From Candidatus Cloacimonas acidaminovorans str. Evry (GTDB lineage Bacteria > Cloacimonadota > Cloacimonadia > Cloacimonadales > Cloacimonadaceae): a DNA stretch of 64,000 nt. Below, piece after piece: positions 7,908 through 56,546 of this stretch. The stretch spans positions 744,001 to 808,000 of the forward strand of contig NC_020449.1 of the NCBI RefSeq assembly GCF_000146065.2, written 5' to 3'. The stretch's first letter is position 1. Each line of letters begins with the position of its first letter. Under the pieces are notes generated by a model. The model was not told the DNA's origin, made no database searches, and saw only the letters and a list, made by a program, of their open reading frames with translations. Both the position numbers and the translations under genes were made by a program.

Positions 7908-8133
7908 TTGGCTTTTTTCCTGTTTGTGCCATTTCAATTGCACCGTATGTTACTTTGCTATATATGCAAGAAGTAAAACCCCAATTTTCTGATTTTAATT
8001 TCTTTTAATTATCCCTATAGAATTATCAGCTAAGCTCAAAATAAATATTTTTTTAACGATTGTATCTGTTTGTGTTTAAGGAAGTTGGTAATTTTTTTGG
8101 CTAATTGTAACTACTTATCCCAAAAATATTTCT
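7908..8133. other. Intergenic, nothing recognised
   Basis: AT-rich sequence between the gmd fragment and the hairpin leader of the 148-aa gene. I see no gene, repeat word or clear promoter in it. Confidence 0.5.
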
Positions 8134-8237
8134 CATTTTTGTCACCGCTATCTCATTTTGTCATTCCTAATATAAGTGAAGGGTCAAAAAAAAATAAATG
8201 ATCCGACCCTTAATAAAAATATAGGAGTGACAAAATG
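8134..8237 (+). promoter_or_regulatory. RBS-occluding two-tier hairpin leader, copy 1
   Basis: The outer stem pairs 8154-8168 (CATTTTGTCATTCCT) with 8223-8237 (AGGAGTGACAAAATG): 15 bp with one G-U, burying the Shine-Dalgarno AGGAG and the start codon. The inner stem pairs 8179-8185 (AAGGGTC) with 8205-8211 (GACCCTT). A second left-arm-like sequence, CATTTTTGTCACC, lies just upstream at 8134-8146 and could pair alternatively. The homologous gene at 26987 has the same arrangement with a different inner-stem sequence. Such a leader would keep translation off unless opened. Pairing was found by eye; no folding energy was calculated. Confidence 0.7.
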
Positions 8238-8681
8238 AAAGCAACAGTAAAACTTGCTTTGCCCGGTTATACCGGAAATATGGATGATGTGGTAATCTAC
8301 TATAATTCCAAGCTGAATAAGTTGATTGCCAGGAAAAAGGGAAAATCTGATTTTGTTCCCGACAATACTATTACCAAAGAGATTTATGCTTTTGCCCGGC
8401 GGATTAACTTGTCTGCTGACTACAAGAAGGATTGTGACAAGTATATCAATGCTTACAATTCCAAAAATCGGCGCAATGGAAAAGCGATGAGTTCCTGGCC
8501 CTCTGTCTGGATGAAAGTAATGAGAGCACAAAAGAAACTTTTACCCGAACTTGACTTGAATACCTTAACAAGGGAACAAGCTATTGAAGCTAATTTGGGT
8601 TGTATATCAATTGCCAAAGCTGTAGAAGCTGGCTTTCTGGAAAATGTTCCAGGACACCAAAAACTAACTAACCTGATTTAA
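8235..8681 (+). CDS. Unknown basic 148-aa protein, copy 1
   Basis: Not recognised. 148 aa, basic, no signal peptide or membrane segment. It is roughly half identical, without gaps, to the protein at 26987-27433. Conserved blocks are LPGxTGNMDDVVIYYNS at the N-terminus, NRxNRR near residues 75-80, MSxWPxVxMKVMRA, and LDLxTLTRE. AGGAG is 5-6 nt before the ATG but lies inside a 15-bp stem. The repeat block of the four-helix-bundle gene follows its stop directly. High conservation of the N-terminus and the basic NRxNRR patch would fit a nucleic-acid-binding protein, perhaps acting on its own leader, but that is speculation. Confidence 0.85.
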   Translation: MKATVKLALPGYTGNMDDVVIYYNSKLNKLIARKKGKSDFVPDNTITKEIYAFARRINLSADYKKDCDKYINAYNSKNRRNGKAMSSWPSVWMKVMRAQKKLLPELDLNTLTREQAIEANLGCISIAKAVEAGFLENVPGHQKLTNLI

Positions 8682-26890: not shown

Positions 26891-26989
26891 AGATTTGTCA
26901 CACTTTTTCATTTTTGTCACCACCTATATAATTAGAGAGCAGAAAAAAATCTATCTGTTCTCAAAGAAATATATAAGGAGACAAAAATG
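26891..26989 (+). promoter_or_regulatory. RBS-occluding two-tier hairpin leader, copy 2
   Basis: The outer stem pairs 26909-26918 (CATTTTTGTC) with 26980-26989 (GACAAAAATG), and continues after a small internal loop with TATATA 26925-26930 pairing TATATA 26970-26975; AAGGAG and the ATG are enclosed. The inner stem pairs 26935-26943 (GAGAGCAGA) with 26954-26962 (TCTGTTCTC), 9 bp with one G-U. A second ATTTGTCACAC lies upstream at 26893-26903. Same design as 8134-8237, with an unrelated inner stem. Confidence 0.7.
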
Positions 26990-27433
26990 AAAGCGTATGT
27001 AAAACTAATGCTTCCCGGTTTCACGGGAAATATGGATGATGTAGTGATATACTACAATTCACATTTGAATAAGTATATTGCCCGCCGGAAAGTGATACCC
27101 AAATATACACCTTCCAATGATATTATTAAAGATATCTTTGCCTTTGCCAAACGCATAGAATTGAGTGAGGGCTATTTAAATGACTGCCGTGAATATATCT
27201 TTCAGTTCAATCGTAAAAATCGTCGGCAAAATAGAGCAATGAGCACCTGGCCCAATGTTTTTATGAAAGTTATGCGTGCTACAATGAAGTCCTACCCCGA
27301 TCTTGATCTGAAAACCCTTACCAGAGAAGAAATAATAGCAAAGAATTTACCCTGCAGGTCTATTTATGAGTCCATCAATGTAGGATATCTGGAAAAGGTT
27401 CACGGATATGATAAACTAGATAATGTTCTATAA
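26987..27433 (+). CDS. Unknown basic 148-aa protein, copy 2
   Basis: Not recognised. Same length as, and gap-free alignable with, the protein at 8235 (LPGFTGNMDDVVIYYNS, FNRKNRRQNRAMSTWPNVF, LDLKTLTREE). Both copies stand alone, next to blocks of repeat words and beside polysaccharide genes, and both have the occluded leader. AAGGAG is 6 nt before the ATG. No membrane or signal segment. The paralogy plus conserved leader suggests a self-contained unit that moves or duplicates together with its control region. Confidence 0.85.
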   Translation: MKAYVKLMLPGFTGNMDDVVIYYNSHLNKYIARRKVIPKYTPSNDIIKDIFAFAKRIELSEGYLNDCREYIFQFNRKNRRQNRAMSTWPNVFMKVMRATMKSYPDLDLKTLTREEIIAKNLPCRSIYESINVGYLEKVHGYDKLDNVL

Positions 27434-55678: not shown

Positions 55679-56074
55679 ATGAATTTGAACGAGATAAGTT
55701 ATCAAATTAGGGGTGCTGTTTTTGATGTATATAATGAACTGGGACCCGGGCTAATGGAAAATGTTTACGAAAAAGCTCTTATTATTGAATTGCAGAATAA
55801 GAAGTTACAAGTTCAAAAACAAGTTCCAATAGAAGTTCTTTATAGAGGTTTTGATCTTGGTCTTCAATATCGGTTGGATTTATTGGTAAATGAACAAGTG
55901 GTAATAGAATTGAAATCGGTAGAAACATTATTACCTGTTCATCATAAGCAGTTAATAACTTACTTGAAATTAGCAAAGAAACCTTTGGGCTTTTTAATTA
56001 ACTTCAATACTGATTCCATCAAAGACAATATCATAAGAATAGCCAATGACAAAAATCATCCAGACCTTAAATAA
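55679..56074 (+). CDS. GxxExxY protein, tandem copy 1
   Basis: 131 aa. NEISYQIRGAVFDVYNELGP, GLMENVYEKALIIEL (G-x-x-E-x-x-Y), then LQYRLDLLVNEQVVIELKSV (D...E-L-K, PD-(D/E)XK-like core), HHKQLITYLKLAKKPLGFLI and NFN. Same family as, but different subgroup from, 42462 and 49829. Nearly identical to the next copy, 472 bp on; four residues differ in what I compared. W1 arms flank each copy. Confidence 0.92.
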   Translation: MNLNEISYQIRGAVFDVYNELGPGLMENVYEKALIIELQNKKLQVQKQVPIEVLYRGFDLGLQYRLDLLVNEQVVIELKSVETLLPVHHKQLITYLKLAKKPLGFLINFNTDSIKDNIIRIANDKNHPDLK

Positions 56075-56150: not shown

Positions 56151-56546
56151 ATGAATTTGAACGAGATAAGCTATCAAATTAGGGGTGCTGTTTTTGATGT
56201 ATATAATGAACTGGGACCCGGATTACTGGAAAAAGTTTATGAACAAGCTCTTATTATTGAATTGCAGAATAAGAAGTTACAAGTTCAAAAACAAGTTCCA
56301 ATAGAAGTTCTTTATAGAGGTTTTGATCTTGGTCTTCAATATCGGTTGGATTTATTGGTAAATGAACAAGTGGTAATAGAATTGAAATCGGTAGAAACAT
56401 TATTACCTGTTCATCATAAGCAGCTAATAACATACTTGAAATTAGCAAAGAAACCTTTGGGCTTTTTAATTAACTTCAATACTGATTCCATCAAAGACAA
56501 TATCATAAGAATAACCAATGACAAAAATCATCCAGACCTTAAATAA
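56151..56546 (+). CDS. GxxExxY protein, tandem copy 2
   Basis: 131 aa, near-identical to the copy at 55679 (GLLEKVYEQALIIEL here; GLMENVYEKALIIEL there; one Ala/Thr difference near the end). Intact D...E-L-K core. The 3' arm at 56548 ends one base before the start of the sugar transferase. The high identity of the two copies, including third positions, shows a recent tandem duplication of the arm-gene unit. Confidence 0.92.
   Translation: MNLNEISYQIRGAVFDVYNELGPGLLEKVYEQALIIELQNKKLQVQKQVPIEVLYRGFDLGLQYRLDLLVNEQVVIELKSVETLLPVHHKQLITYLKLAKKPLGFLINFNTDSIKDNIIRITNDKNHPDLK

Follow-up and report, generated by a model that had tools for sequence, protein, structure and literature searches.

The gene pair and its leader hairpins

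Two paralogous genes for uncharacterised 148-aa proteins lie in the window, that is the whole stretch of 64,000 nucleotides analysed here from the genome of Candidatus Cloacimonas acidaminovorans str. Evry (G000; 2.25 Mb, single contig). P0001 (8235..8681, plus strand) and P0002 (26987..27433, plus strand) share 59% identity, in agreement with the gene duplication seen in the initial annotation. P0002 is located within an all-plus-strand polysaccharide gene cluster, the region around both genes is rich in polysaccharide-biosynthesis genes, and several family relatives in other genera adjoin such genes, as judged from ORFs. Two adjacent 131-aa ORFs with matching offsets (55679-56074 and 56151-56546) resemble a tandem duplication in the polysaccharide cluster. 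Within this analysis the family is confined to Cloacimonadaceae and close relatives. It has nine members in G000 and is multi-copy in most genomes of this GTDB family and nearly missing from the order's other families. Copy numbers range from 1 to 21 per matching genome, the 21 matches being found in the 2.7 Mb genome G005.

The family has no worthwhile sequence match in Pfam, NCBIfam, PHROG, PADLOC or PDB, and an AlphaFold model of the protein (mean pLDDT 88) yielded no Foldseek match against PDB and BFVD at E up to 0.001. Lambda-integrase-like and Stl-like folds were set aside as weak matches (TM 0.17; Z at most 3.5), and a possible likeness between the protein's N-terminus and DUF6266 received no support from hmmscan.

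Both genes are preceded by leaders in which an outer stem encloses an inner hairpin, all on the plus strand. According to fold and pairing analysis, the outer left arm of copy 1 (TCATTTTGTCATTCCTA, 8153..8169) forms 17 bp with the right arm (TAGGAGTGACAAAATGA, 8222..8238), which contains the SD (GGAG, 8224-8227) and the AUG (8235-8237) and buries both. The enclosed inner hairpin (8179..8211) pairs AAGGGTC (8179-8185) with GACCCTT (8205-8211). In copy 2 the outer left arm (TCATTTTTGTC, 26908..26918) pairs with a right arm (GACAAAAATGA, 26980..26990) that contains the AUG (26987-26989) and has the SD (GGA, 26977-26979) immediately 5' of it, while the inner hairpin (26935..26962) is made up of GAGAGCAGA (26935-26943) and TCTGTTCTC (26954-26962). 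Both inner hairpins are predicted to be 5'-terminal in mRNA from the genes' own promoters. The pairing of a leader arm with the SD-AUG region, proposed for both copies in the initial annotation, is borne out by MFE z-scores of -8.0 (copy 1) and -5.9 (copy 2), with 0/200 shuffles as good. With the arm in the transcript, opening of the start region costs 21.2 kcal/mol in copy 1 and 11.5 kcal/mol in copy 2, compared with a maximum of 7.6 kcal/mol among 40 other gene starts of the window and 9-11 kcal/mol at several unrelated starts. The second copy of the left arm described further upstream (8138-8146; 26894-26902) is real as well and able to pair with the SD region, albeit more weakly than the left arm itself (-14.6 versus -24.0 kcal/mol in copy 1, -6.2 versus -15.4 kcal/mol in copy 2).

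A direct-repeat module overlapping the outer left arm

The outer left arm overlaps the downstream member of a pair of direct repeats conserved at the DNA level. Together they form a module, TTTGTCACC-N10-TTTGTCACC followed by a -10-like element TATATAAG and a purine start, that precedes many family paralogues; upstream of many same-genus paralogues two direct repeats TTTTGTCACC are followed by CCC, a TATA-rich stretch and a purine tract. In copy 1, repeat 1 (TTTGTCACC, 8138..8146) and repeat 2 (TTTGTCATT, 8157..8165, within the outer left arm) are spaced 19 bp start-to-start, as at most G000 loci, and the position profile places a -10-like element TAATATAAG at 8168..8176 with a predicted start at ~8178 (+/-3). 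The corresponding repeats of copy 2 are TTTGTCACA (26894..26902) and TTTGTCACC (26913..26921), and here a simple scan detects a sigma-70-like promoter, TTTTCA-16-TATAAT (26905..26932), with the outer left arm inside its span. At the copy 1 module the same kind of scan detects no consensus promoter; modules differ in the -35 and in how it is spaced. Over 24 module instances, the positions after repeat 2 are T/A-rich at 4-9 and purines at 13-16, and information falls to about zero by 18-19, which is what a promoter starting at position ~13-16 would show. The starts predicted from this profile, 8178-8181 in copy 1 and 26934-26937 in copy 2, coincide with the beginnings of the inner stems.

The genome-wide motif statistics are based on pattern searches. 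TTTGTCMCC-N8-16-TTTGTCMCC matched 14 times in eight same-genus genomes (reversed control, 0), and 13 of these matches are situated directly upstream of a family gene. The start-to-start spacing of the repeats is characteristic of the genome, namely 19 bp in G000 (one copy 20), 20 in G001 (4/4) and 21 in G002 (6/6), and 3 of 200,000 label permutations were as tight. The half-site also varies by genome (TTTGTCACC, TYTGTCCC, TTTGTCTCC). Such genome-specific spacing points to a DNA-binding factor. It is conceivable, if still doubtful, that an undescribed trans-acting factor controls the multi-copy, lineage-specific family of the Cloacimonadaceae via tandem direct repeats that, within each species, have altered their spacing and half-site concertedly at all loci, and that the operator of one subfamily is at the same time an RNA stem arm blocking read-through translation.

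Half-site and -10 are also present upstream of a tRNA operon (G000), an MFS gene (G002) and other unrelated genes, in single-site pattern searches that include chance matches and in which the control equals the signal at three mismatches; one match, at 2119408 in G000, appears to fall within a coding region. The tRNA-operon module has no conserved counterpart in G001, G002 and G004, three relatives of the same genus, and therefore serves as supporting evidence only. Genome G068 contains 13 copies of a dispersed element of ~120 bp, ending in TTTTGTCACCGTTTTTCGATTTTGTCACCCTATAGATAGTAG, before unrelated or diverse sequences (L152, L154, L156, L159, L161, L163, L164, L165); some are directly followed by a small hairpin. 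The element looks like a dispersed promoter, and the upstream half of it recurs before a family gene in G069 (L149). A promoter/operator function fits the family, tRNA, MFS and G068 sites; an RNA-only function does not.

Further conserved elements were observed near family genes. All three P0001 orthologues share a conserved block 5' of the module (8057-8092; CGATTGTATCTGTTTGTGTTTAAGGAAGTTGG...), perhaps a regulatory site or an upstream promoter. Another subfamily, characterised by VKEGIKGFSGKLDGAIYYYHP (leaders L006, L025, L028, L029, L031-L034, L053, L056 and L063), has promoters of the TTGACA type preceded by a long palindrome (fullest form, CCCCTTAATCAAGCGTTAAT-N-ATTAACGCTTGATTAAGGGG), which is probably a second operator type. 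In a different subfamily (L008, L093, L094, L097) a conserved hairpin of its own (GAAGGC..TTTCCGGAAA..GCCT) directly follows the -10; 5'-terminal hairpins therefore recur across the regulon. Literature searches on promoters of C. acidaminovorans and on the repeat sequence turned up nothing of relevance.

The module bears directly on the model suggested by the initial annotation, in which an always-transcribed leader RNA controls translation through its hairpin, the upstream arm copy perhaps acting as an alternative partner in a riboregulator or thermosensor. The strong fold and an upstream copy able to pair at -14.6 kcal/mol agree with this model, but the left arm is part of a promoter-like module common to loci without such a hairpin, DNA spacing accounts for both repeats, and no Rfam family was matched: the window gave no match at the gathering threshold, and at E up to 0.5 the six loci considered below gave one sub-threshold match only, to a microRNA family on the minus strand. 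We consider a constitutive leader RNA of this kind improbable. Of the proposed cis-regulatory leader, the RBS burial stands, in P0001 and P0002 as well as in four relatives, while the direct repeats of a promoter/operator module found at many loci account for both the left arm and its second copy.

Autogenous control, with the basic 148-aa protein binding either the hairpin of its own leader or its own operator, would suit a small, basic family with operators at many of its genes, yet paralogues of only ~30% identity have one operator in common within a genome, other genera possess the protein but not the module, and none of the fold matches points to binding of nucleic acids. Nothing in the analysis suggests that the protein is bound to the leader, as had been speculated, and we regard autogenous control as highly improbable.

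Predicted own transcripts and read-through RNA

Burial of the RBS is well supported in P0001, P0002 and four relatives of the same lineage. The six leaders, L001, L010 and L011 (P0001-type) and L002, L142 and L143 (P0002-type), represent two orthologue groups only. In all six, pairing of the left arm with its own SD region is stronger than with any of the 40 window gene starts, with p values from shuffling of the SD context of 0.001 (L001), 0.002 (L010), 0.001 (L011), 0.003 (L002), 0.038 (L142) and 0.006 (L143). Among the other module-bearing paralogues this is the case for one in 21 (L062). Orthologues in other genera lack the arms (opening cost 2.5-9.3 kcal/mol). The expectation that homologues keep the outer stem thus fails for the wider family, and the structure is a lineage-specific gain rather than a family feature.

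As the initial annotation had it, the inner stems pair in both copies despite their unlike sequences, at the coordinates given above. Its reading of this difference as covariation needs correction. The unlike inner stems of two paralogues do not amount to covariation statistics; among the three P0001 orthologues the inner stem is invariant. Modest, suggestive support for matched arms comes from an arm-swap permutation over the six leaders (outer stem 18/720, inner stem 26/720; p ~0.03). In L143, a P0002 orthologue with 91% identity, the base of the inner stem reads GAGG/CCTC versus GAGA/TCTC, as read from the sequences.

Matched arms might also arise at the DNA level alone, if the repeats and an inverted half-site at the RBS (GTGACAAA) were operators and the RNA pairing were incidental, or a quasi-palindrome perfected by template-switch mutation. 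The exact inverted half-site is indeed found before the AUG in L001 and L011, the left arm of L001 approximates the reverse complement of its own right arm, and inverted half-sites are present at the tRNA and MFS promoters. However, L010, L002, L142 and L143 keep the pairing though the half-site at the RBS is not retained, and the lengths of T-run and A-run match in five of the six leaders (4/4 or 5/5; L142 has 5/6). An origin from DNA operators alone therefore appears rather unlikely.

The reading that we prefer, and whose chances we judge to be about even, is that the leader houses a promoter within the 5' strand of a hairpin that sequesters the RBS. A pair of TTTGTCACC direct repeats, with a spacing of 19 bp in G000, and a -10-like element would constitute a shared promoter that serves a lineage-specific paralogous family and is probably under the control of a factor. 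Transcription would initiate downstream of the left arm of the outer stem and upstream of its right arm; a start at this point is probable because repeat 2, and with it the left arm, precedes the -10-like element and the purine start. With such a start, the gene's own message would be devoid of the left arm, carry the inner hairpin as a 5'-terminal stem-loop and leave the RBS open. Transcripts entering from upstream would comprise both arms, enclose SD and AUG in a long stem and be poorly translated. The analysis shows the sequences, the fold energies, how the repeats are conserved and spaced, and whether the RBS is open or closed in silico; where transcription starts, that a trans-acting factor takes part and that the stem insulates the gene are what we infer.

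Folding in silico is consistent with this division. In the own transcripts of all six leaders, assuming the predicted start, opening of the RBS costs 0.1-1.5 kcal/mol, compared with 7.3-21.5 kcal/mol in read-through RNA of the same leaders, the lowest value being that of L142, near the background maximum of 7.6 kcal/mol. The difference between read-through and own transcript amounts to 7-21 kcal/mol in the six leaders and to -1.5 to 5.8 kcal/mol in nine other module-bearing genes. As the left arm is also part of the shared promoter, the hairpin probably silences only messages entering from upstream, acting on read-through RNA rather than serving the gene's own message as a general leader. P0002 is part of a long plus-strand cluster, and no plus-strand terminator-like site was found between it and the plus-strand polysaccharide genes upstream, so read-through is plausible there. 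For P0001, no obvious plus-strand gene is located upstream to supply read-through. Most likely, the structure is a sequestering stem, a read-through insulator built on a promoter, and not a stand-alone riboregulator.

Comparison with known systems

In Pho-box-type operators, tandem direct repeats with a spacing of 11 replace or flank the -35. The modules described here resemble them in having direct repeats of a short half-site just 5' of the -10, and differ in a spacing of 19-21 bp and in the half-site TTTGTCACC. IS10, IS50 and IS200 protect their transposase from read-through by inverted arms around an inner promoter that fold only in read-through RNA, and the predicted arrangement at P0001 and P0002 shares these traits. 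Unlike the transposases of these elements, P0001 and P0002 have no Pfam, PHROG, NCBIfam or PDB match, and an unsystematic look at the ends found neither terminal inverted repeats nor element boundaries.

The closest anatomy is that of phage T4 gene e (lysozyme) and I-TevI, in which the DNA encoding the 5' strand of a hairpin that sequesters the RBS also contains a late promoter, so that long transcripts arriving from upstream are silenced and short ones from the gene's own promoter are translated; in I-TevI, an operator also lies over the late promoter (PMC3014915, PMC2988022). The leaders of P0001 and P0002 are predicted to share this anatomy, including the start and the effect: in silico, SD and AUG are sequestered in RNA carrying the 5' arm, the RBS is open in the short transcript given the predicted start, and a sequence signature of a putative promoter is present within the 5' arm/loop region, as indicated by the module, the copy 2 scan and the position profile. 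In contrast to the T4 genes, those studied here are chromosomal bacterial genes of an uncharacterised family with a sigma-70-like promoter and tandem direct repeats. The trick of placing a promoter in the hairpin is known from phage T4 genes and is probably new in this bacterial group. If our reading is correct, the T4-type device of concealing a promoter within a stem that sequesters the RBS extends to chromosomal genes of a phylum that has hardly been studied, and is tied there to a regulon with distinctive, species-specific operator spacing. This spacing offers a direct way to search for the regulator and to approach the role of the multi-copy, polysaccharide-locus-associated family.
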